Below, one piece after another: positions 30,274-48,690 of a stretch of 64,000 bases of DNA. Source of the DNA: Citrus sinensis (Eukaryota > Streptophyta > Magnoliopsida > Sapindales > Rutaceae); the NCBI RefSeq assembly GCF_022201045.2, contig NC_068556.1, forward strand, positions 8,410,001-8,474,000, written 5' to 3'. The notes beneath the pieces were generated by a model. That model worked only from the letters and a program-made list of their open reading frames with translations. It was not told the origin of the DNA and did no database searches. The translations under genes and the position numbers were made by a program. Numbering within the stretch: the stretch's first letter is position 1; every line of letters starts with the position of its first letter.

Positions 30274-31915
30274 TTGTTTTTTTATGGCCAATGGGTTAGT
30301 GTCAATGGTCACTATAAGTTTAATGGTCATGAAGCAAAGGGGGTTTCTGTGTCTTATGCAACAACTTATGAAGATTTGCTTGTAATTATAGCGCGTATCT
30401 TACATGTCCTAATAGACGAGTCGATTATTACTATGAAATACTTATTACATGCAACGACAACAATGCCACTTATCAAAATATCATGCAATGAAGATGTTCA
30501 ATTCTTCTTGGATGAAAATAGTGGTAATGGTCCCAGAACTCCCTTATGTGTCACAGTTGAACCTTGATTGTCAAGCTCAACAGAACTACAAAGAGGGGAG
30601 GAAGTTGGTATATGGTCATTAAATGAGAATGATATTCCTGCTGCTTTCCTAAATGAACCAGAATTGCCTCTTCAAGAGTCAATACGTGTTGATATTAGTC
30701 AAGAGAAACCATTACAATCTCCCTTACATGTGCTCTGTACAAGTAGTCAACAATCCCCTTCAACAAGAATGCTTCCCAAAACTTAGATTGATGACTAGTA
30801 CAAGTAACTTTCTATGAGATGGTACTCCTTCGCAGGGTTTAGAAATTGAGTGTGGTGATGAAAAAGTGTATTTGAAAGCTATGTTTCGAGATAAGGATTA
30901 ATTGATGATTGCTATCAAAGATCAACATGTATGCAATTCAAAAAAATTTCCAATTTAGTGTAAAAAAGTCTAACAAAAAGCTTTATAAAATTACATGTCT
31001 GGATGAAGATTGCAAATGGCATCTTTGTGCAATGAGAGTAAAAGATTGTGATATATTTGAAATCACCAAGTTTTTTGACACTCACATATGCTCAAGAAAT
31101 ATTCTTCATTTAGATCATCGACAAGCTGCAACAAAACTTTTAGAAAAGACTATCATGAAGAAATTTGAAAGAGTTGGTCAATCATACACACCAAATGATA
31201 TAATAGATGATGTCCAAACAGAATACGGGTTAAGAATAAGCTACAACAAAGCATGAAAGGCCAAAGAACATGCATTGCAAATGGAAAGAGGTTCACCTAA
31301 AGAATCATTTTCATTACTTCCTTTATATTTCCACATGCTTGAAAAGAAGAAACCTGGGACAATTACACATACACATATCGACCCACAAAAACCATTTTTT
31401 GTATTGTTTTATGGCTCTTGGTTTTTGTATTCGTGGGTTTAGAAATTCAACTAGACCAGTAATTACCATGGATGGGACCTTTTTGAAAGCTTTGTACAAA
31501 AGCACAATGTTTGTAGCTGTATGCAAAGATGGAAATAATTAGATTTATCCTTTGACGTTTGGTGTAAGTGACTTTGAATATAATGAATCATAGGAATAGT
31601 TTATGACTAAGCTTGAGGCTGCTATTCGTGAGAATGATGATCTTGTTTTTATATCAGACCGCCATGGAAGCATACATTCAAGCATTGCTAAAGTGTTTCC
31701 AAACGCCAGTCATGGAGCTTGTAAATATCACCTTGCACAAACCTTAGGTCGAACCTTAGAAAAGTTGGAGGGAGTTTATATAATTTTTTTTGCAAGCAGT
31801 TGAGTTTGATGATCTGATGAACCAAATAAGAACTGCTAATCTAAGGGATGCAAAATATTTGTTTAGAGCTAGATATGAAAAATAGGCTTGCTCGCATTTC
31901 AATGGAAAAAGGTAT

Positions 31916-34398: not shown

Positions 34399-35725
34399 TG
34401 TAGAGTGTTAGAAAATGCATATTTATAAAGGAGAAAATCGTCATTTTACATTTCAAGTCTTACTAACAACCCTTACTTTTATGTTTTTAACATTCTTGTG
34501 ATTTAATTACGTGTGTTTTATTTTAATTAAGTAATTTATGTATTTTAGGGGCATTATAGTCATTTCACAATAAAGGAGAGATCAGACGGCAAAACAGACA
34601 TCACTTTTGAACTCAAGACGGTCGAAAACCTTAGGAGGAGCATAAAAGGAAAAATGGCACTATTCACATGTATGGTACTATTCACGTATATGGTACTGTA
34701 TACGTTACTGTTCACAGCACTGTTCACATAGACGGACGATGATGTGGCATTGACTGATGAGGTGTCACGATCCTATTGGACTAAAATTCTTATGTACTGT
34801 TGATGGTGACGTGGCAGCATATCAGTGGACGAAAAATCTCGCGTACGGTGCATGCATCACACAGGATTATTTTCAACCAAACCGCGTTACTGTTCATCCG
34901 GGTCAAACCGTGTTACTGTTCATCCACGTGGTCAAACCGTGGACTGTTGACTGATGACGTGGCGCAATCCTGAGCGTCCAAACTGTTTTTAATCCGATGA
35001 CCATAATTTACTCAATGTATCTATAAAAAAGGGGGCCTCCCCCCCCTAATTTGATATCTCTGAATCTATTTTTGGGATCCATTTTCTGTAATTCCTTCTC
35101 CATCTTGTATTTTCTTTGTATTTTAATAAATTCTCATTTTGCCCCTAGTTCAATTATGAGTGGCTAATTTTCTTTCAAGCTTGGGTTGAAGGTGAAGTCT
35201 CAACATGTGTCATGGGCTTAATTTGGTAAATTTATTTTCTCTTCCCCTCTAGTTTTTGTGGATGTTTTGACTTCTCGTCGACAAATAATAATATTCTTGT
35301 CTAGTACCGCCTTGGTTTCACCGGCCCTCTAGTACAAGGTTATTATTATTTGGCACGAGAAGCCCTTAGCACCATATTGATTAAAGCGTGGCTCATGAGG
35401 TGTGGATTCCCCCCTCATGATTTAATTGGCATTAATACGAATTATTTAGCCCATGATGCATGTTGATACGGATCCAGATACCCAAGTACGTCATTTCAAT
35501 AGATTTCGCTTCAATTTATTCTCGTCATTGCAATTCTAATTTTAGAATCTTAATTCCAATTTTAGGATAATTTAAATCACTTCCACCACAATTTCAACCA
35601 CCCATTTACAAAATTAATTCTACATATAATTAAAATCCACCTCTTCGTGGGATCGACACTCGTCACCATTGATCTATACTACAATAGATTCGTGCGCTTG
35701 CGAGTACATTAAAATTTGCACAACA
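34399..35725 (+). mobile_element. Athila-like element, 5' LTR
   Basis: Starts TGTAGAGTGTTAGAAAATGC and ends TTGCACAACA, immediately followed by the primer-binding site. A TATA box (TATAAAA, 35022-35028) lies just before a GGGGGCCTCCCCCC palindrome, and an AATAAA-type signal lies near 35125, consistent with U3/R/U5 order. U3 carries repeated TACTATTCAC/TACTGTTCA units. By eye it differs from the downstream LTR at about 25 substitutions plus a 12-13-base indel over ~1.3 kb, roughly 2 percent, so insertion was recent on a genomic time scale. Confidence 0.9.
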
Positions 35726-35731
35726 AGTTTT

Positions 35732-35745
35732 TGGCGCCGTTGCCG
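35732..35745 (+). other. Primer-binding site of the Athila-like element
   Basis: TGGCGCCGTTGCCG, the primer-binding sequence characteristic of Athila-type gypsy elements, seven bases after the LTR end. It is followed by a T-rich non-coding leader up to about 36110. Confidence 0.8.
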
Positions 35746-36108
35746 TGGAGGTAAGTAATTTTAATTCATAGAATTAATTTTTGTGAATAATTTCTTTTAT
35801 TTGTTTTCTTGTATTTTTTTATTATAAAAAAAAGAAAAAAAGAGTGAATCTACATTTAAAGGTTAGTATTTCTTTTATTTTTCTCTTCTTTAAAATTCTG
35901 TAATTTAATTTTTAATTTATTTTTCTTTGTAATTTTTTATCTTATTAATTTATTTTTAGTTAATTTATTTCACATATTTATTTTTGTGTATTTTTATAGA
36001 AAGGTTGTAATAGCGCAATAAGGTTAGTATCGTAATTTCTCCCTCTTCTTTATTTTTATTTGTTTTGTTCCCATCTTTATTTTTATTTTATTTATTTATT
36101 TTGCATAC

Positions 36109-37952
36109 ATGGTCATAGGTCATTATTACCTAATCTTGAACCTATAGACCTTGAATTAGAAAAAACACTTCGCACACACAGGCACGTTAAAAATAAAATG
36201 GATTTACAAGCACCACAGGAGAGGCCATTTAAGGATTATTTCAGTCCTTTAGCAAATTTGAGCACATCATGCATAAGATACCCAAATGTAGCTGCTAGGA
36301 GTTTTGAATTAAAACCTAGTGTGCTAAATTGTCTTCCCACATTTTATGGCCTAGAAAATGAGGATCCATATAATCATCTGAATGATTTTCATGCCATTTG
36401 TCAAACTTTTAAATATGAAAATTTTTCAGATGATGATGTAAAACTTAGACTATTCCCATTTTTTTAAAAAAATAGAGCTCGTTCATGGCTTAATACATTG
36501 CCTGCTAATAGCATTGCATCATGGGAACAAATGGTAACAAAATTTTTGAATAAATATTTCCCAGTGCATAAAACCAATGCTATTCGCAGGGAAATCTCAG
36601 AGTTTACCCAGAGAGAGGACGAGTAATTTTTCGAAACATGGGAGAGATTCAATGGGCTACTCTTGAAGTGTCCACATCATGGGTACGAGAAATGGCACCA
36701 ATGCCAATACTTTTTAGAGGGATTACTACTAAATGTGCAAGAATGGCTAATGGCAACAAGTGGAGGAGAGCTAATGTCAAAAAGTGCATTAGAGATTTGG
36801 GAATTCTTCCAGCGACAAGCGGATAATTCCCAACAACGAAGTCGATCACTCAGGAATACTAGAAGAATTAAGGGAGTGAATGAGGTTCACATTGGCGAAT
36901 CTAGTTCAGAAATTAAAGAAGTCAAAGCAATAATTGAAGGTCTCTCTCGACAAATAGCATCGTTATCGACTGCTAAATCAACAGAGCCATATGACCCTGA
37001 CTCATATCCAGATCAAGCCAATGCCATAGGTGTAATGAGAAAGCCTTCAAATTACAACCCATACTCCAACACATATAACCCTGGATAGAGAGACCACCCC
37101 AATTTTTCATGGTCTCAAGGATTCCAACAGAATGGACCAGCAGCTTCAGCTCCACCAATTCCACAAAATCCTCAAGCCTCTCAGCCACCATTTAGACCAT
37201 ACAATCAGAACCAGAATTTCTCTCAACCCAGACCATGGGAGGATTCATTCCAGAATCTCAAGAATCTTACTCACTCCACGATTGAGCAACAAAACCGCAC
37301 CATTGATGGACTACGAAATGAGTTGAGAGCAGACTTCAACTCACAAGCTCAATCAGTTTCAAGCCTCGAGAAGATGGTGGGACAACTTGCTTCTTCAGTT
37401 CAGACCTTAGCAATGACTGTTGAGAAAGACAAGTTTCCAAGTCAACCAGTGCCTAACTCTAAAGGAGTGCATGAAGCAAGTACCAGTTCACCACAGCAAT
37501 ATGGAGAAGTCAAAGCCGTCATGACCTTGCGAAAAGGAAAAGAAGTCGACAACAAAGTGGAGATGCCGGCGACAAAAGAAAATCAAATTGTACTTATAAA
37601 TGTTGACGACTCATCACCGGAGGAGAAAGAAGAAACCAACCCACGAGAATACGTTCCCAAAGCTCCATTCCCCCAGAGGTTAGCTAAAGGCAAGAAGGGA
37701 AAATCCACAGGTGAGATTCTTGAAATCTTCAAACAGGTAAGTGTTAACATCCCTTTACTTGATGCTATTAAACAAGTTCCATCTTATGCCAAGTTTCTTA
37801 AAGACCTTTGTACTAAAAAGAGAAATATGCATGTTCAAAAGAAGGCATTTTTAACAGAAAACGTTAGTTCTATCCTCCAACATAAAATTCCTTTAAAATG
37901 TAAAGACCCAGGCTCCCCTACTATTTCATATAGCATAGGGAACCCCAATTGA
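36109..37952 (+). pseudogene. gag: Athila-like gag, copy 1 (broken)
   Basis: Encodes the retrotransposon capsid polyprotein. The retrotransposon gag domain is recognisable from 36200 (RPFKDYF, then FELKPSVLNCLP, LRLFP, the RARSWL motif, PHHGYEKWH). It is followed by the YNPYSNTYNPG stretch typical of Athila gag and a long hydrophilic tail. Breaks: the initiating ATG present in the second copy (47132) is ATA here, and nonsense codons occur at 36465, 36624 and 37086. The frame runs on to 37952, where it goes out of phase with the protease. The second gag copy differs at the first two nonsense codons; its truncation leaves 37086 uncomparable. Confidence 0.85.
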
Positions 37953-40900
37953 GAATGCTTTGTTGGATTTAGGAGCTAGTGTAAATTTGTTGCCTTATTC
38001 TGTATTTGTGAAACTTGGACTAGGAGAATTACACCCAACTCTAGTGGTGTTACAGCTTGCAGATCGGTCCACGAAAATACCTCGTGGTATTGTGGAGGAC
38101 GTGCTTATCTAGGTAGACAAGTTTTATTTTCCTGTTGATTTCATTGTAATTGACACTCAACCAATACAGGATTCAAGGAAGCACATCCCCATTATTCTAG
38201 GCCGACCTTTCTTGGCAACTGCGGATGCTCACATTCAATGCATGACCGAAAATATGCAGTTGTCCTTCGGCAACATGACTATGGAGCTGAGCATCTTCAA
38301 CATTGCCAAACAACCTCACAGTGCAGATGATGGAATTGTTGATGTGGATTTAATTGAAGCATTAGTTGATGACACTTTTCTTTCAAACCTTAGTGATGAT
38401 CCTTTACAAACATGTTTAACTCACTTTGGTTTGAATTTTGATATTGACAGATCGGTCGATGAGGTCAACGCCCTGCTTGACTCAGCACCATCTATGGATA
38501 CTAATAAATGGAAGTCAAGAGTTGAACAACTAGCACCATCAGAGAAGAAACTCATCCCATCATCAGAATCACCACCGAAACTTGTGCTCAAACCATTGCC
38601 CAACACTCTGGAATATGTATTTTTGGGAGAAGAAAGTACTCTGCCGGTAATCATCTCATCATCCCTTAATGACGAACAAAAAGGTAAGTTGTTGGATGTT
38701 TTAAAAGAGCACAAAGGAGCATTAGGATGGACCATAGCAGACATAAAAGGTATAAACCCAGTAGACTGCATGCATTATATTCACCTTGATGAAAATGCTA
38801 AAATTACTAGGGAGATGCAACGTCGGTTAAATCCTAATATGAAAGAAGTTGTTAGAACTGAAGTCCTTAAGCTATTAGATGCAGGTATCATTTACCTAAT
38901 TTCTGATAGTTCATGGGTCAGTCCTGTGCAAGTTGTCCCCAAAAAGTCAGGAGTCACAGTAGTTACGAATGCTGATAATGAATTGATACCCACTAGAGTA
39001 ACTACATGATGGCGTGTATGCATTGATTATAGAAAGTTGAATTCTGTCACACGTAAAGACCATTTTCCTTTACCATTTATTGATCAAATGCTTGATAGAT
39101 TAGCAGGCCATGAATTTTATTGCTTTCTAGATGGCTACTCAGGATATAATCAGATTCCCATAGCACCAAAAGATCAAGAGAAAACTACTTTCACTTGCCC
39201 TTTTGGCACATTTGCATATAGGAGAATGCCATTTGGATTATGCAATGCACCTGCTACATTTCAACGATGCATGTTGAGCATTTTTTCTAATATGGTTGAA
39301 CGATTCCTTGAAGTCTTTATGGATGATTTTTCTGTCTTTGGTGGCTCGTTTGATCAATGTTTGCATCATCTAACACTAGTTCTGCAGAGATGTATCGAGA
39401 AGAACTTGGTCTTAAATTGGGAGAAGTGTCATTTTATGGTAAAACAAGGTATTGTTCTCGGTCACATCATTTCAAGCAAAGGTATTGAGGTTGACAAAGC
39501 CAAGGTGGATCTCATTTCTAATCTTCCTCCACCCAAAACAGTCAGAGAAGTAAGATCTTTCCTTGGGCATGCTGGTTTCTATAGACGTTTCATTAAAGAT
39601 TTTAGCAAAGTTTCTAGACCCTTATGCAATTTACTTGCTAAGGATGTACCTTTTATCTTTAATGATTCATGTCTTATGGCGTTTGAAAAATTAAAACAGT
39701 TGTTGACATCATCACCCATCATTCAGGGCCCAAACTGGAGCTTACCATTTGAGCTAATGTGTGATGCATCTGATTATGTAGTAGGAGCAGTATTAGGACA
39801 AAGAGTTGATCGAATTTCCCACGTTATTTACTATGCTAGTATGACATTAAATGATGCACAGTTGAACTATTCAACTACTGAAAAAGAAATGCTAGCAGTA
39901 GTGTTTGCATTGGAAAATTTTGATCATATCTCATTGGTTGTAAAATAATTATATTCACAGATCATGCTGCTCTTAAATATCTTCTCACAAAGAAAGATGC
40001 AAAAGCTAGACTAATTCGTTGGGTGTTACTTTTGCAGGAATTTGACTTGGAATTCAAAGATAAGAAAGGGACAGAAAATGTTGTGGCGGACCACCTCTCT
40101 CGTCTCCATTTTGACACAATTACAGAGCCATTAATATTGAATGAGTCATTTCCAGATGAACAATTAATGAATGTGGAAGTATTACCTTGGTATGCTGATA
40201 TAGTTAATTATCTTGTTACAGGTAAACTTTCAGAGCATTGGACCAAGCAAGACAAGGCTAAATTCTTTGCAGAAATAAAGAATTTCTTTTGGGATGACCC
40301 GTATTTGTTCAAGTATTGTGCAGACCAAATTGTTAGACGATGCGTCCTAGAAAGTGAAATTCCGAATATCCTTTCATTCTGCCATGAACAAGCTTGTGAA
40401 GGCCATTTCAGTGCTAAGAAAACAGCAACTAAAGTTTTACAATGTGGTTTCTATTGGCCAACTATATTTCGAGATGCTTACACTTTCTGTTCTTCATGTG
40501 ATAGGTGTCAACGAATGGGCAGCATCACGCGAAGGAATATGATGCCACTAAATCCAATTTTAGTGGTTGAGATTTTTGATGTATGGGGTATCGACTTCAT
40601 GGGACCCTTTCCCCCGTCTTTTGGCCATCAATACATATTGGTTGCTGTTGACTATGTATCGAAATGGGTAGAAGCAATTTCATGTAGGACCAATGATCAC
40701 AAAGTGGTGATAGGATTTTTGAAAAGTAATATTGTCTCACGCTTTGGATTCCCTCGAGCAATAATCAGTGATGGTGGTGCCCACTTTTGTAACAAAGCAT
40801 TCAAAGCTCTTTTGACAAAGTATTCAATCACACACAAAGTGGCGACTCCGTATCATCCGCAAACCAGTGGCCAAGTTGAGATATCCAATCGAGAAATAAA

Positions 40901-41484
40901 GCACATATTAGAAAAAAACGGTGAGGCCGGACAGAAAAGATTGGTCATTAAGACTTGATGATGCCTTATGGGCATATAGAACGGCTTTTAAGACCCCGAT
41001 TGGGATGTCACCCTACAGGCTAGTATATGGAAAAGCTTGCCACCTACCTGTGGAACTCGAGCATCGTGCATATTGGGCCATCAAGAAATTCAATTTTGAC
41101 ATGCAGCAAGCCAGCTTAGAAAGAAGATTACAACTGGCAGAACTTGAAGAAATTCGCAATGATGCATACGAAAATGCCAAGATTTACAAGCAACGAATGA
41201 AAGTCTTCCATGATAAGCAAATTATGAGAAAATCATTCACTCCAGGTCAGAAAGTGTTTTTATTCAATTCTCGCTTGCACCTATTCCCAGGTAAGTTACG
41301 CTCTCGTTGGTTTGGCCCATTTATTGTTCATACTGTTTTTCCACATGGGGCAATTGAAATTAAGGACCCAAAGAACGGTGTCACGTTTAAAGTTAATGAT
41401 CAAAGATTAAAGCCATATCTAGAATACCAACCACATGGAGAAGACACCGAAGTAAATTTGAGTGACCCACCAGATTTGAATTGA
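37953..41484 (+). pseudogene. pol: Athila-like pol (protease, RT, RNase H, integrase), several breaks
   Basis: Domains in gypsy order. An aspartic protease begins near 37955 (ALLDLGASVNLLP, where plant gypsy proteases often have DLGAS). Reverse transcriptase is at about 38800-39450 (YRKLN, FPLPFIDQML, FLDGYSGYNQI, catalytic FMDDFSVF). RNase H is at about 39760-40100 (CDASDYVVGAVLGQ, ADHLSRL). Integrase is at about 40330-40920 (zinc finger H-H-C-C with [12 protein letters not shown] core with [28 protein letters not shown]). The C-terminal integrase region continues to 41484 ([22 protein letters not shown]). Breaks: a phase change near 37940, a stop at 38110, TGA at 39007, phase changes near 39940 and 40918. 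The element cannot make a full polyprotein. Confidence 0.9.
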
Positions 41485-41981: not shown

Positions 41982-42539
41982 ATGGACAAAAACAAGACTC
42001 TAGCGAAGCTTCACAAGCGATTCCCTTCATTTCCTCATAATGCCCTCCTTACGATCTATAAAGCTCGGTCCGTACGCATGCGATTACTCATGAGGAATAA
42101 CATACCTGCTGACATCCGTTGGTTAATCGAGGCTAAAGTACGATTGGCAGGTGAGTTACCTCCAAAATTTATTGCATACATGCCTGGTTGTGGTAAAGGA
42201 AATTATGCAAGAAAACGACGAGCTCGAAGAATTTCTGTTGCTTGTCATAAGTATGCCAGAATGAGTTGCAATAAAAACCCATGTTCTTTAGGAATGATGT
42301 CTGATAACAGGGAAGATAAGATTCAATTCATTAGGGATGACTTGAATAAGGAGTCATTGGATGATATCATTTTGTCTCTTGAAACGCATCCTAATGGATA
42401 TGTGCAAGGAGCGATTCTCCAGTTATGGCCATTATTCCAGAAAGAGCATGCACGATATAGTCTCGGGAATCTGACTATAAACGACCCTGTTTGCCAGTTT
42501 ATAAGAAAACTGGATAGGAAGCCTATTCTCAACCCATAG
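41982..42539 (+). CDS. Unknown element-encoded ORF, 185 aa
   Basis: An intact ORF in an otherwise decayed element, sense with pol and upstream of the captured LOG gene. It is basic, with a KRRARR cluster that could be a nuclear signal, and has clustered cysteines (CHKYARMSCNKNPC) that might bind zinc. A C-terminal region has a helical look (LDDIILSLETHPNGYVQGAI). No signal peptide or membrane segment is present, so an env-like protein is unlikely. I cannot name its family. Confidence 0.55.
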   Translation: MDKNKTLAKLHKRFPSFPHNALLTIYKARSVRMRLLMRNNIPADIRWLIEAKVRLAGELPPKFIAYMPGCGKGNYARKRRARRISVACHKYARMSCNKNPCSLGMMSDNREDKIQFIRDDLNKESLDDIILSLETHPNGYVQGAILQLWPLFQKEHARYSLGNLTINDPVCQFIRKLDRKPILNP

Positions 42540-42857: not shown

Positions 42858-43556
42858 ATGGCAGCTACTCCAAATAGACAATTCAAGAACATTTGTGTGC
42901 TTGCTGGATTTACTTATGGCAAACATAAAGCTTGCTGGATTTACTTATGGCAAACATAAAGCGTTCGTTGAGGCAGCCATCGATCTTGGTCGAAGTATAG
43001 CAGAGAGAAAATTACACTTGTGTATGGAGGAGGTAACCGAGGGTTATCAAAAATGGTCTCTGAAGCAGCTTTTGTCAGAGGAAGTCAAGTGTTAGGCATC
43101 ATCCCAAGAGTCCTAAAACCGTTGGGCAGTTCGTCTGACTCATCAACTGGAGACGAGTTAGTTGTCTCAGGTATGCAAGAAAGAATAACTGAAATGCTTA
43201 ATCATGCTGATGCTTTTATTTTCCTTCCAGGAGATCTTGCGACACTAGAGGCACTTATCACACTAGCATCTTGGGCCCATCTGCACATTCACCAGAAACC
43301 CATCGGTTTGTTAAATGTCAATAACTTTTATGATGGCTTTATCGCATTTCTTAACCATGCAATAAAAAACTACTTCATTCCTTCCCATGCGAAAAAACTT
43401 TTTATTTGTGCTCACACTGCTAATGAGCTACTTGATATGTTACAAGCTTATAAACCGGAGCCGGACCCCTGGACCTTTGTGTTGGAGCGTCCAAATAATG
43501 ATGGTAACAGTAGCGGTAGTAAGAAGTACAAATTAGATTTAACTCTTCGCCTGTAA
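42858..43556 (+). pseudogene. LOG: LOG-like cytokinin riboside 5'-monophosphate phosphoribohydrolase captured by the retrotransposon
   Basis: LOG enzymes release active cytokinin bases from their riboside monophosphates. The similarity starts at the ATG at 42858 (QFKNICVLAGFTYGKHKAF) and continues through AAIDLGRSIAERKL, YGGGNRGL, VLGIIPRVLKPL, QERITEM with the conserved Arg, PGDLATLEAL with the conserved Glu, KPIGLLNVNNFYDG and SAPT-like CAHTANELL, to a stop at 43554. There are no introns, although plant LOG genes normally have several, which points to capture through RNA. Breaks: a 31-base unit is tandemly duplicated at 42899-42960, and one base is missing just before YGGG (about 43020). 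The family loop PGGxGT reads PGDLAT, so phosphate binding is probably impaired. A C-terminal extension (about 30 residues, PDPWTFVLERPNNDG...) is unlike plant LOGs I know. Confidence 0.8.
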
Positions 43557-45441
43557 ATATTTTCTTCTGTGTTACACTACCCAGGTGATGTCTTCTAAAC
43601 ACTACTTCTTTCCTTTAAAACATTGAGGACAATGTTTCGATCTGGTTGGGGGGAGGGAATAGTCGACAATTGTGGAATCTTGGTTAAGTTTTTACTGATT
43701 TTTTGTTGTATAAACTAACTGTTGCTAACTTTTTGTGTTGAAGATGGCTGAATATGGAGTGTAGTGACTCTAGAAACGCATCTTCATCGTTTAAAAAAAA
43801 ATTAAAAAAAATTACTTAAAAAAAATTAAAAAAAAATTCTTTTTCTTTATTAAGTTTTGATGTTCATTTTTTTCTTCTTTTTAATTTCTCCTCTATAAAT
43901 ATACATTTTCCAACTTTTGAGTTGAAGATGGCTGAATATGGAGTGTAGTTCCTCTAGAAACGCATCTTCTTTAAAAAAAAAAATCATTTTCGTTTTCTAT
44001 CATTTTACGTGTAACTTTTCTAATTAGTTTTTATGCATCATTTTCACATTTCTACAAGCATATTTTCATTTCATGCTTAGAATAGGTTGGGGGGTAGAAT
44101 GTTGTTTAAAAAAAAAAAATTTTGTGTGATTTGTTTTTACATTGGATGACATGATTAATTTCAAATTTTAGTATTTGTATTATCTTTGGTCTTAAGTGAT
44201 GTTACGCTATGTTTGCCACTTTACATGTTGATGTCGGAGACAAATGTGAGTTGCTTGAAGGAATGAATATGTCATAATAAGTACCAAGTGAGTTTTTGAG
44301 CTTATTATTTTTCTTGGAGAATAACCCTTTTGCCCACTCTTTATACAGCTTAGCAGTTTATTATTTTTCACACGATCTCTAAATTGCTTTTGAGTTAACC
44401 CTTAAAAAAAATTATAAAATAAAAAAAAAGTGTGTTGTTACATTGGGAGGCCCATCTAACTAGTAGATATGGATGATTATTTAGAGCTCTAAAAGACGAT
44501 GGAAATGCCATCTTTGATCCGTTTGAGCCTTTCTAGCCATCCATTTGATTAAATATCCATAGTTAACCCTTTTGAGCCTTTAAAAAAAAAAAAAACCTTT
44601 TCTTTGTCAACTTATCATCTTGACCCACTCCGATTTGGAGTATTACCCGATGTCTTATAAGTTCCATCACCTATTTATGTTTGAGAAAAATGTAAATAAT
44701 TATTTTGTTAAGTGAAGTTATGCCAAAAAAAAAAAAAAACAAAAGTTGTTGTTTCAAAAGAATAAAAATAAAAATAATAGGTGAAATCCACCTTGCAACT
44801 TCAAAAAAAAATAAAAATTCTCTGCACTTTTCTCAAACATACACTTTGTTTTCCTTATTTCCCTTATTTGTTAGCCATGTCCCTAGCCTACGTTACGTCC
44901 TAATAAAACTCCTTCTTGATTTTAGGGAACTATAGTTTGAAGTAGAAGCTAGTTATATGGGCTAAAAAGATGTAGTGATGCATAAAAAAAAAATAATAAA
45001 AAAGATAAATAAAGTGGGTTGACTAGCATTTTTGTTTGACTTGAGATCATATTATTCTAAGCTGAGGGCATATTTATTTCATCTTGGTGAGAGCATGTAA
45101 TATCACTTCTTTATTATTTTCTCTCTCAATTACCATTCATTTGAGTGACTATTTTTATTGGGTTTAATTTATTTATGAGAGTGTCACTACTTCCAGTGAG
45201 ATTTTAGGGTTTGACATGTCATTCTTGAAAGTAGCTATAACAAAGTCTACTGGGCTGATTCATGTGGATGGTTAATATGGGTGTGATATTTCTTTAGACT
45301 GTAGATAATGCTTATACTTTTATTTGATTCCTATCATTAATCTGATTGAATAAATACGAGTGTTTAAAAAAAATCATTTTGAATTTGAATTTTGTTTTCG
45401 CTTTATTTGCTAGGGACTAGCAATAAGCTGGTTCGGGGGTG
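43557..45441 (+). other. 3' non-coding region of the Athila-like element
   Basis: Starts with CATTGAGGACAATGTTTCGA and a purine-rich GGTTGGGGGGAGGGAA at 43646-43661, a motif seen after the coding region of Athila/Tat elements. A ~53-base unit, GTTGAAGATGGCTGAATATG..., occurs at 43737 and 43921 (period 184). A second G-rich tract, GGTTGGGGGG, is near 44084. Just before the 3' LTR lies GGTTCGGGGGTG, the likely polypurine tract priming plus-strand synthesis. Many A runs; no coding frame. Confidence 0.65.
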
Positions 45442-46755
45442 TGTTGAGTGTTAGAAAATGCATATTTATAAAGGAGAAAACCGTTATTTTACATTTCAAG
45501 TCTTACTAACAACCCTTACTTTTATGTTTTTAACATTCTTGTGATTTAATTACGTGTGTTTTATTTTAATTAAGTAATTTATGTATTTTAGGGGTATTAT
45601 AGTCATTTCATAATAAAGGAGAGATCAGACGGCAAAACAGACATCACTTTTGAACTCAGGACGGTCGAAAACCTTAGGAGGAGCATAAAAGGAAAAATGG
45701 CACTATTCACATGTATGGTACTATTCACGTATATGGTACTGTATACGTTACTGTTCACAGCACTGTTCACATAGACGGACGATGATGTGGCATTGACTGA
45801 TGAGGTGTCACGATCCTGTTGGACTAAAATTCTTATGTACTGTTGATGGTGACGTGACAGCATATCAGTGGACGAAAAATCTCGCGTACGGTGCATGCAT
45901 CACACAGGATTATTTTCAACCAAACCGCGTTACTGTTCATCCGGGTCAAACCATGTTACTGTTCATCCGCGTGGTCAAACCGTGGACTGTTGACTGATGA
46001 CGTGGCGCAATCCTGAGCGTCCAAACTGTTTTTAATCCGATGGCCATAATTTATTCCATGTATCTATAAAAAGGGGGCCTCCCCCCGCTAATTTGATATC
46101 TCTGAATCTATTTTTGGGATCCATTTTTTGTAATTCCTTCTCCATCTTGTATTTTCTTTGTATTTTAATAAATTCCCATTTTGCCCCTAGTTCAATTATA
46201 AGTGGCCAATTTTCTTTCAAGCTTGGGTTGAAGGTGAAGTCTCAACATGTGTCATGGGCTTAATTTGGTAAATTTATTTTCTCTTCCCCTCTAGTTTTTG
46301 TGGATGTTTTGACTTCTCGTCGACAAATAATAATATTCTTGTCTAGTACCGCCTTGGTTTCACCGACCCTCTAGTACAAGGTTATTATTATTTGGCACGA
46401 GAAGCCCTTAGCACCATATTGATTAAAGCGTGGTTCATGAGGTGTGGATTCCCCCCTCATGATTTAATTGGCATTAATACGGATTATTTAGCCCATGATG
46501 CATGTTGATATGGATCCAGATACCCAAGTACGTCATTTTAATAGATTTCGCTTCAATTTATTCTCGTCGTTGCAATTCTAATTTTAGAATCTTAATTCCA
46601 ATTTTAGGATAATTTAAATCATTTCCACCACCCATTTACAAAATTAATTCTACATATAATTAAAATCCACCTCCTCGTGGGATCGACACTCGTCACCATT
46701 GATCTATACTACAATAGATTCGTGCGCTTGCGAGTACATTAAAATTTGCACAACA
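45442..46755 (+). mobile_element. Athila-like element, shared middle LTR
   Basis: Starts TGTTGAGTGTTAGAAAATGC and ends TTGCACAACA, a perfect TGTTG/CAACA pair. It serves as the 3' LTR of the element starting at 34399 and is also followed by its own primer-binding site (46762-46775), leader and gag. It therefore doubles as the 5' LTR of a second, truncated copy. It lacks 12-13 bases present in the first LTR near 35590. Confidence 0.9.
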
Positions 46756-47790
46756 AGTTTTTGGCGCCGTTGCCGTGGAGGTAAGTAATTTTAATTCATA
46801 GAATTAATTTTTGTGAATAATTTCTTTTATTTGTTTTCTTGTATTTTTTTATTATAAAAAAAAGAAAAAAAGAGTGAATCTACATTTAAAGGTTAGTATT
46901 TCTTTTATTTTTCTCTTCTTTAAAATTCTGTAATTTAATTTTTAATTTATTTTTCTTTGTAATTTTTTTATCTTATTAATTTATTTTTAGTTAATTTATT
47001 TCACATATTTATTTTTGTGTATTTTTATAGAAAGGTTGTAATAGCGCAATAAGGTTAATATCGTAATTTCTCCATCTTCTTTATTTTTATTTGTTTTGTT
47101 CCCATCTTTATTTTTATTTTATTTATTTTGCATGCATGGTCGTAGGTCATTATTACCTAATCTTGAACCTATAGACCTTGAATTAGAAAAAACACTTCGC
47201 ACACACAGGCACGTTAAAAATAAAATGGATTTACAAGCACCACAGGAGAGGCCATTTAAGGATTATTTCAGTCCTTTAGCAAATTTGAGCACATCATGCA
47301 TAAGATACCCAAATGTAGCTGCTAGGAGTTTTGAATTAAAACCTAGTGTGCTAAATTGTCTCCCCACATTTTATGGCCTAGAAAATGAGGATCCATATAA
47401 TCATCTGAATGATTTTCATGCCATTTGTCAAACTTTTAAATATGAAAATTTTTCAGATGATGATGTAAAACTTAGACTATTCCCATTTTCTTTAAAAGAT
47501 AGAGCTCGTTCATGGCTTAATACATTGCCTGCTAATAGCATTGCATCATGGGAACAAATGGTAACAAAATTTTTGAATAAATATTTCCCAGTGTATAAAA
47601 CCAATGCTATTCGCAGGGAAATCTCAGAGTTTACCCAGAGAGAGGACGAGCAATTTTTCGAAACATGGGAGAGATTCAATGGGCTACTCTTGAAGTGTCC
47701 ACATCATGGGTACGAGAAATGACACCAATGCCAATACTTTTTAGAGGGATTACTACCAAATGTGCAAGAATGGCTAATGGCAACAAGTGG
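46756..47790 (+). pseudogene. gag: Second, truncated Athila-like internal region (leader and gag)
   Basis: Nearly identical to 35726-36761: the primer-binding site, leader, then gag from the ATG at 47132. The frame is open through the capsid region, in contrast to copy 1, but ends in a TGA at 47720-47722, where copy 1 has TGG. Homology to copy 1 stops abruptly after GGCAACAAGTGG at 47790, where a Ulp1-like sequence on the opposite strand begins. No pol or third LTR follows. Confidence 0.85.
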
Positions 47791-48690
47791 ATACACCTCA
47801 CCAACACCAATTTCTTTCAACAAGCATGAAGTGGCTTGTACATATGGTTCCATACGTGTCTTAATTTTCTTGTCCTTATATGTCGATATATCACAGTCAT
47901 ACACATAGATAATCTTGCGACGCAACTCGATAACTCCCAACGCCCAATGAAGTGACTCTATATTTACAGGAAGATATACTTGTATTTACAAACATTAAGC
48001 ATTACAAAAATATTTATATGAATCATTAACAATGTAAGAATCTTAATTATAAATTGATACCTTATCAACATCATGCCATGCGATGAGATAGTATAGTTTA
48101 AAATTTGCACCATTGATACATAATCATTCTTCTCCCACAAGATACGACAATCATTTAAGTGAGCAAGTTTTTTAGTAAAAGCATGCTGTAATTGAGTTAA
48201 GAATAGAAAATGAGTTTACATGAATTTTAACATAAGAAAACAATAAATTAATTATCAATTACCACAAATTTACTCTCCATGATAGCATGTCTCTCAATTT
48301 GGTTAGTTTTATCTTTAGTAACACCATATCTAATAATCATAAATCCTGCATCTATATGCTTTAATATATATGTATATATACTAAATTATTTGAATTGTAT
48401 TAGTGAACGAGCATTATTTTTTACATTGATATCAAGCCAATTCTCCATAGTGTACAACTGCTTAAAAGGGTCCTTTGACACTTCTTCACTTGGTATGTCC
48501 ACCAACTTATCATCAGTTGATTTCAACCACACTTCTAATGCTTTAATTTTTGATTTAGGTATAACTGCACTTGGATCATATGTGAAAGGTGCTGCAAGCA
48601 TACTTAAACCATCAGTGCAATCATGTTTTTGCTTTTTTAATGGATTCGTGTAAGGTGTTTTGCAGAACTTCATTCATGCTTGTGAACAAA
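47791..48690 (-). pseudogene. Truncated Ulp1-like cysteine protease gene of transposon origin
   Basis: On the minus strand, from about 48673, segments read KIKALEVWLKSTDDKLVD..., then ILKHIDAGFMIIRYGV and ERHAIMESKFV (about 48370-48260). Next is a middle exon at about 48060-48200, and last YLPVNIESLHWALGVIELRR...IYVYDCDI at 47855-47990. The HW and YVYD motifs are the His and Asp positions of C48 (Ulp1/SENP-like) proteases often carried by plant MULE and CACTA elements. The fragment is cut at 47791 by the retrotransposon before the Gln and catalytic Cys. Apparent introns separate the segments; a first exon beyond 48690 is not clear. Confidence 0.65.

Follow-up and report, generated by a model that had tools for sequence, protein, structure and literature searches.

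Extra ORFs are frequent in plant LTR elements, and most of them have no known function. LOG enzymes activate cytokinins, which are plant hormones. The closest system described so far is a YgdH/LONELY GUY domain that Alvarado-Marchena (2022, PMC9289625) mentions for Gypsy consensus sequences from two Citrus species, C. sinensis and C. clementina, and, with the filter off, from P. trichocarpa, where Steinbauerova 2011 is cited. To judge from that passage, these are almost certainly the same element family as the one analysed here, so that the earlier note on this DNA, which knew of no described family of this kind, has been overtaken. For other extra ORFs, a modulation of silencing has been proposed, as stated in part of PMC11728184. 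In our literature search, YgdH and retrotransposon occurred together in PMC9289625 alone, and the LOG-bearing element family was nowhere connected with an NABP gene, a loss of catalysis or an EAR tail; five papers that mention LTR retrotransposons along with a carlavirus bear titles on other subjects. Among papers on Citrus retrotransposons, PMC7145672 gave no match for LOG and cytokinin, and PMC6466647 gave none for LOG, phosphoribohydrolase and lysine; LOG-domain terms were absent from PMC7264820, and retrotransposons and citrus found no match in PMC11593424, which deals with plant LOG evolution. Not encountered in print in that search were the cassette formed by the LOG-derived gene and its partner, the catalytic loss, the selection, the EAR-like tail and the clade apart from host LOGs.

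The window analysed here is a stretch of 64,000 nucleotides from Citrus sinensis, and the features of its element are collected in Table 1. Pfam profile matches placed RT, RNase H and integrase in that order between a pair of LTRs found by alignment, which makes the element a member of Ty3/gypsy. The PBS-like stretch is tentatively assigned to a tRNA type. The two LTRs (34399-35727 versus 45442-46757) were the same at 1290 of 1316 aligned bases and differed at 26, a divergence of 1.98% with gaps uncounted, in line with the identity of about 98 percent claimed before. Their length of ~1.33 kb was similar to the mean of 1,302 bp given for Citrus Athila solo-LTRs in a passage of PMC6466647. The LOG-derived gene lies in sense orientation and without introns between the end of the integrase frame (41484) and the start of the second LTR (45442), as the coordinates bear out.

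Table 1. Features of the Ty3/gypsy element in the window (positions are those of the whole stretch)
Feature	Position	Strand	Evidence or remark
First LTR	34399..35725	+	3' end approximate, set at last CA ahead of the PBS-like stretch
PBS-like stretch TGGCGCCGTTGCC	35732..35744	+	
gag region, several broken frames	36036..37952	+	weak PF03732, E 0.058 in 36627-37085
pol (RT, RNase H, integrase), broken frames	38113..41484	+	PF00078 E 1.6e-29, PF17919 E 1.9e-27, PF00665 E 2.8e-16
Open accessory ORF resembling viral NABP/Carla_C4 (basic patch and Cys cluster)	41982..42539	+	profile matches of relatives
LOG-derived accessory gene, broken here	42858..43556	+	PDB 2a33, PF03641, tblastn over P0002 1-222
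31-bp tandem duplication, 5' part of LOG gene	42899..42960	+	
Changed catalytic motif P-G-D-L-A-T-L-E-A (canonical PGGxGTxxE)	43227..43253	+	
C-terminal tail KKYKLDLTLRL, basic patch then LxLxL (EAR-like)	43521..43553	+	
Second LTR	45442..46755	+	3' end approximate
Second internal region, truncated: 5' leader and gag	46756..47791	+	~98% identity to region ending 36764

The LTR at 45442 had been taken for the 3' LTR of the element; it is an LTR, but the element's own 5' internal region resumes behind it and this repeat ends at 47791, giving the arrangement LTR, internal region, LTR, partial internal region. In the second gag copy (47045-47719), PF03732 matched with E 1.2e-17. The LTR pair may be a product of tandem recombination, so an insertion age estimated from the LTRs would be unsafe. 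A long 3' region separates the LOG gene from the second LTR, and a 69-bp repeat was observed in it (43731-43799 and 43915-43983, 87% identity), both copies of which end in an A-run. On the flanks of the element we observed a MuDR-type DNA-binding domain (PF03108, E 5.3e-10, 30909-31253, plus strand) and a Ulp1 protease domain (PF02902, E 4.6e-11, 47707-47985, minus strand), which places the element within or close to MULE-like DNA.

The LOG-like sequence previously noticed at 42858-43556 proved to be real. Its open part (42975-43553) matched AtLOG3 (PDB 2a33, E 2.7e-35) and the Pfam family PF03641 (E 7.9e-28). In the window the gene is disrupted by the 31-bp tandem duplication and by another break in the frame, which lies before 43015, and two stops fall within 42858-43013. 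The AlphaFold model of a Citrus relative, P0002, was confident in its core (pLDDT 80.7, pTM 0.77), with residues 199-222 below a pLDDT of 50, as expected for a disordered tail, and the nearest folds retrieved with Foldseek were the LOG structures 1ydh (E 2.4e-21) and 2a33 (E 8.3e-21). The earlier note had proposed to search LOG and its upstream sequence from 41982 as a single stretch; 41982-42539 is a separate gene, and this NABP-like neighbour had been overlooked together with the EAR-like tail.

To determine how widely the LOG-derived gene is carried, we searched the genome (299.7 Mb). First-look candidates, which are unconfirmed copies, numbered 2,122 for LOG, 1,877 for the upstream NABP-like ORF and 6,534 for RT, the last possibly including other lineages. 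At least 150 LOG matches were scored, with 91-100% identity to the query and 147 of the 150 free of stops, and the Citrus element copies with the LOG-derived gene number more than 1,000. When 12 NABP-like copies hand-picked at intervals from the 150 scored were inspected, LOG was found 3' of the NABP-like ORF in all of them (11 as one piece and 1 as two), at the same place, ~320 nt past that ORF. In the reverse direction, the NABP-like ORF was present inside the fetched flank of 68 of 70 LOG loci, the exceptions being L077 and L078. LOG and the NABP-like ORF form a two-gene cassette that is fixed among the sampled copies, and because the pair is fixed in all of them, at the same site, a later nested insertion of LOG is excluded. 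The view that the element takes LOG along when it multiplies is upheld by these 12 copies and the 2,122 first-look candidates, and none of the 12 lacked LOG. All named rows among the 120 LOG relatives listed were from Citrus, and 103 of the 120 had NCBI gene names, either hypothetical protein or cytokinin riboside 5'-monophosphate phosphoribohydrolase. We infer that most of these named relatives are element copies; if so, LOG gene-family counts would be inflated, which is a warning for annotation.

The partner gene was characterized through its relatives. The window ORF itself matched Carla_C4 below the cut-off (E 0.22, 12 bits against 20.9). Among 10 relatives scanned first, 6 exceeded at least one Pfam cut-off, P0140 reaching 33.8 bits for Viral_NABP (cut-off 23) and 28.5 bits for Carla_C4 (cut-off 20.9); Citrus P0121, as well as P0192, P0239 and P0168, stayed below the cut-offs. 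In total, 281 related proteins were found, and the named rows among the matches listed came from Citrus, Xanthoceras, Acer, Populus and Rhamnella. From the 120 listed we chose 40, mostly near full length, and at E<=0.01 Viral_NABP was matched by 36 of these and Carla_C4 by 34 (best E 1.2e-8). The AlphaFold model of the NABP-like protein was poor (pLDDT 60), so we claim homology on profiles alone. Relatives of the NABP-like protein and of the LOG protein were not found among IMG/VR viral contigs. In the parts of the literature consulted, carlavirus CRPs are described as RNA-silencing suppressors (PMC12172455, PMC3689765), CVB p12 gave no silencing suppression in one assay (PMC3689765), and hyperplasia is attributed to p12 acting as a transcription factor (PMC12172455, PMC3689765).

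The same pairing was observed outside Citrus. The Rhamnella protein P0239 is a single gene model that joins an NABP-like relative, with 56% identity to the window ORF over 97%, to a LOG part (PF03641, E 1.8e-15). This LOG part found 46 proteins, including 6 from Rhamnella, 1 from Parasponia and 21 from Reevesia, the last spread across 12 different chromosome-sized contigs. These three genera belong to Rosales and Malvales, and the order of Citrus is Sapindales. From the copy number and the one joined gene model, the non-Citrus LOGs appear to belong to elements. In addition, the longest contig given for P0140 (NABP) and for P0252 (LOG) has the same length, 8,723 bases, so the two may lie on one contig.

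To establish the relationship between element and host LOGs, a phylogeny that the earlier note had also proposed, we built a tree of 37 element rows (9 from Citrus and 28 of the 46 matches to the LOG part of P0239), 10 host LOGs and two bacterial outgroups; the host rows were AtLOG3, AtLOG8 and eight Citrus host genes pieced together from exons, some of them partial. All 37 element rows, among them those of Citrus, Rhamnella, Parasponia and Reevesia, formed one clade with a support of 99/99 and a long stem (0.47), apart from a host clade supported at 95/96, and the Citrus element rows were nested in the element clade (100/100). From the sequences, the acquisition of LOG looks single and old. 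The long residence in the element family that had been suspected is in agreement with this separation and with the presence of LOG in 12 of 12 sampled copies. In AU tests, joining the element LOG to the AtLOG3-type group (p 0.043) or to L065/68/69 (p 0.007) was rejected, and joining it to the AtLOG8 group (p 0.116) or to L064/L067 (p 0.268) was not.

The host donor gene was not found in a genome search with an AtLOG3 fragment, in which all of the best 150 scored matches were element-type copies, each covering nearly the full fragment in one intronless stretch; the 30 that were fetched (L031-L060) had the altered motif and an NABP-like neighbour. The canonical GG[FY]GTxEE pattern gave 11 genome sites, against 1 for the reversed control, and of the 10 sites fetched, 8 were intron-split host LOG exons and 2 were chance-like. 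The transduction of a spliced host mRNA, as first suggested, fits the absence of introns, but the donor search was without result and two host groups remain.

In CgLOG, whose numbering we use for element and host LOGs alike, Arg99 and Glu122 are the proposed catalytic residues, Ala substitution at active-site residues almost abolishes activity, Gly116 and Gly118 contact the phosphate, and Lys100 and Glu125 belong to the sites for adenine and the prenyl group, as stated in the portion of PMC4979012 consulted. All 10 host rows had Glu at position 122, as did 40 of 43 element rows from outside Citrus. None of the 64 intact Citrus rows had it (Ala in 60, Thr in 2, Val in 1 and Ser in 1), and neither did any of the 118 Citrus proteins among the matches listed. 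Genome-wide, exact codes for DLATLEA numbered 1,031 versus 4 for DLATLEE, with 0 for the reversed-pattern control. The intact Citrus rows also carried Gly116 to Asp (64/64), Gly118 to Ala (63/64) and His97 to Gln (64/64). Arg99 was present in all 64 intact Citrus rows, in 99 of 110 Citrus proteins among the matches listed and in 39 of 45 non-Citrus rows. Lys100 and Glu125, retained in 10 of 10 host rows, were replaced in elements of both groups: among 45 non-Citrus rows, position 100 was occupied by Ile 37 times, by Met 5 times and by Lys once, and position 125 was Gln in 40 of 43 and Glu in none, while in intact Citrus rows the two positions were Ile (62/64) and Thr (63/64), with no Lys and no Glu.

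Because Glu122 and the motif glycines are replaced, the Citrus element LOG is most likely no LOG enzyme, and the derived protein is probably a pseudoenzyme. The cytokinin activation with which the gene had been associated is not supported for the Citrus protein, in which the catalytic Glu and motif glycines 116 and 118 are all changed. The non-Citrus LOGs mostly retain PGG[FY]GTLEE and may still be enzymes. It could be argued that the element carries a functional cytokinin-activating enzyme that raises local cytokinin, for example for cell division or open chromatin, as Glu122 and Arg99 are kept in most non-Citrus rows and the LOG fold is retained in the Citrus model; we consider this quite improbable, given that intact Citrus rows have lost Glu122 and both glycines, and that Lys100 and Glu125 are replaced nearly element-wide. 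For Citrus in particular, an active LOG enzyme is unsupported, at 1,031 Ala sites against 4 with Glu.

Alternatively, the pocket changes at Lys100 and Glu125 might have given a new nucleotide specificity, the Citrus protein later being restricted to nucleotide binding. These changes are near clade-wide, and the bacterial LOG structure 5zbk, which in alignment with 5zbj shows just this replacement of Glu by Ala, was solved with AMP bound, so nucleotide binding by the Citrus element LOG is possible. The loss in Citrus of the glycines that contact the phosphate in CgLOG speaks against a changed substrate, which we regard as unlikely, if less so than an active cytokinin enzyme.

To evaluate if the LOG-derived gene has been under selection, we calculated dN/dS by the Nei-Gojobori method on single representatives, with 1000 codon bootstraps, from intact rows (64 of 70 LOG loci, and 53 NABP-like rows, of which A 25, B 2 and C 26). 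Subfamily A comprised the best matches to the window, subfamily C the best matches to the AtLOG3 fragment, and subfamily B rows 1-8, 12 and 13 of 150 P0094 hits, rows 9-11 being omitted for their one to four stops. For LOG, dN/dS was 0.219 between A and C (0.145-0.331; 0.226 in a second A-C pair), 0.156 between A and B (0.099-0.233) and 0.224 between B and C (0.148-0.341), at a between-subfamily dS of 0.61-0.83. The NABP-like ORF gave 0.244, 0.201 and 0.280 between subfamilies. A value of 1 was reached in 0 of 1000 bootstraps for each of the 7 pairs, and the all-pair LOG medians (0.176-0.234) were near those of the representatives. LOG is under purifying selection between the Citrus subfamilies. 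Since the Glu122 change is common to A, B and C, the simplest reading is that it is older than the split of the subfamilies and that the protein was retained afterwards. Within subfamilies, LOG dN/dS was 0.11 for A, 0.28 for C and 0.56 for B, the last of which fits drift after insertion. As a separate observation, the Citrus gene model P0216 joins, by eye, a subfamily-C-like upstream ORF to a subfamily-B-like LOG part, possibly through inter-subfamily recombination or as a gene-model artefact.

These values bear on two further readings. A single copying event could have turned a host transcript into a functionless, neutral passenger that multiplied along with the element, and the broken copy in the window and the post-insertion drift seen among B copies would suit this. 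However, the between-subfamily dN/dS of 0.16-0.22, the altered motif and tail common to A, B and C, and the recurrence of the same type of partner in another plant order (P0239) make a neutral passenger very unlikely. The LOG sequence might instead work via small RNAs against host LOG transcripts, but the selection on it is strong at the amino-acid level, and the 150 scored element copies have only 42-47% protein identity to the AtLOG3 fragment, presumably too distant for much pairing; we give this the least credence of all the explanations weighed, to the point of near dismissal.

The C-terminal extension had been described as atypical of host LOGs, and this was confirmed. AtLOG3 and AtLOG8 align just to residues 161-162 of the 193-residue query; likewise, AtLOG3 aligns to residue 201 of the 216 in non-Citrus P0242, a protein whose alignment with Citrus copies runs through to its C-terminal end. 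The tail consists of a basic patch followed by L-x-L-x-L (LDLTLRL in the window). LxLxL was present within the last 12 residues of all 64 intact Citrus rows, as compared with a shuffle expectation of ~1.3 (A 0.46, B 0.37, C 0.44), and in 0 of 5 Citrus host C-ends. Outside Citrus, it occurred in 22 of 29 rows (shuffle expectation 0.83), these being the rows among the 45 in the full-length range of 205-232 residues, plus P0246; the 7 without it include three Reevesia models that stop ahead of the tail and P0256, with LNLTISL. A narrower tail pattern, scored on all rows including truncated ones, was found in 16 of 45 non-Citrus rows and in 84 of 120 Citrus proteins among the matches listed. Of the 45 non-Citrus rows, 27 extend into the tail; among these 27, the three Leu were conserved in 27, 25 and 26, and of the positions between them one had its commonest residue in 21 of 27 and the other a mix of Ser and Arg. 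For Leu conservation we rely on these unselected rows, another column table having used rows pre-chosen for LxLxL, and the conservation stems partly from common descent. LxLxL is one of two EAR consensus forms, according to the part of PMC9956375 consulted. In the portion of PMC7446885 consulted, the oomycete effector HaRxL21 binds TPL via a C-terminal EAR and none of ten other LxLxL effectors tested bound TPL, so the motif is insufficient for binding.

Taken together, our results favour, with moderate confidence, the view that the LOG sequence resides as an accessory gene, kept by selection, in a long-established Ty3/gypsy lineage with many copies, its product in Citrus probably being a pseudoenzyme whose EAR-like tail would recruit TOPLESS. 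The evolutionary part, an old and selected LOG-derived accessory gene paired with an NABP-like gene, we hold with high confidence. Recruitment of TOPLESS/TPR by the tail is a tentative proposal that the motif suggests and about which doubt outweighs belief. Under the favoured reading, the Citrus LOG-derived protein would be a folded pseudoenzyme, its basic, EAR-like tail would recruit the host corepressor TOPLESS/TPR in the nucleus, and the NABP-like partner would bind element nucleic acid and perhaps blunt RNA silencing; the pair could then serve as a counter-defence or host-reprogramming module that aids the spread of the element. The most far-reaching form of this proposal, in which a lineage shared among several orders of rosids carries a counter-defence module made up of an NABP-type silencing suppressor and an EAR-tailed LOG that hijacks TOPLESS and is a pseudoenzyme in Citrus, is conceivable though somewhat less likely again. 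In that form it would be, to our knowledge, the first transposable element seen to encode an EAR effector. With its recognisable history, its fixed partner of plant-virus type and its many open copies, the LOG ORF makes an element-host conflict testable.

As compared with the YgdH-bearing Gypsy elements of PMC9289625, the common feature is LOG as an extra domain in Citrus Ty3/gypsy; the passage concerned deals with its presence alone and is silent about any viral-NABP partner, lost catalysis, selective constraint, EAR-like tail or clade separate from host LOGs. With the type-I plant LOGs AtLOG3 and AtLOG8, the element proteins share the fold, YGGG and the Arg of the MxxR motif. Citrus host LOG genes have introns and GG[YF]GT[LM]EE, whereas the element LOGs are mostly devoid of Lys100 and Glu125 and bear the LxLxL tail, those of Citrus also being without Glu122. 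The partner has in common with the carlavirus Cys-rich/NABP proteins (PF01623, PF05515) a basic patch and a Cys cluster, but it is encoded by an LTR element, measures ~182-185 residues and has a long C-terminal region beyond the Pfam match. HaRxL21 resembles the element LOG in having a C-terminal LxLxL in a non-host protein; it is, in the part of PMC7446885 consulted, an oomycete effector with demonstrated TPL binding, whereas the element LOG is known from sequence alone. Finally, the AlkB m6A-demethylase ORF of Phalaenopsis Ty3/gypsy elements is likewise a captured enzyme of cellular type with a plausible role in RNA-level counter-defence and, in the passage of PMC9289625 concerned, shows activity in vitro and, of the genomes screened there, is confined to Phalaenopsis; in contrast, the element LOG of Citrus is without the enzyme motif, and genes related to it are spread over several plant orders.
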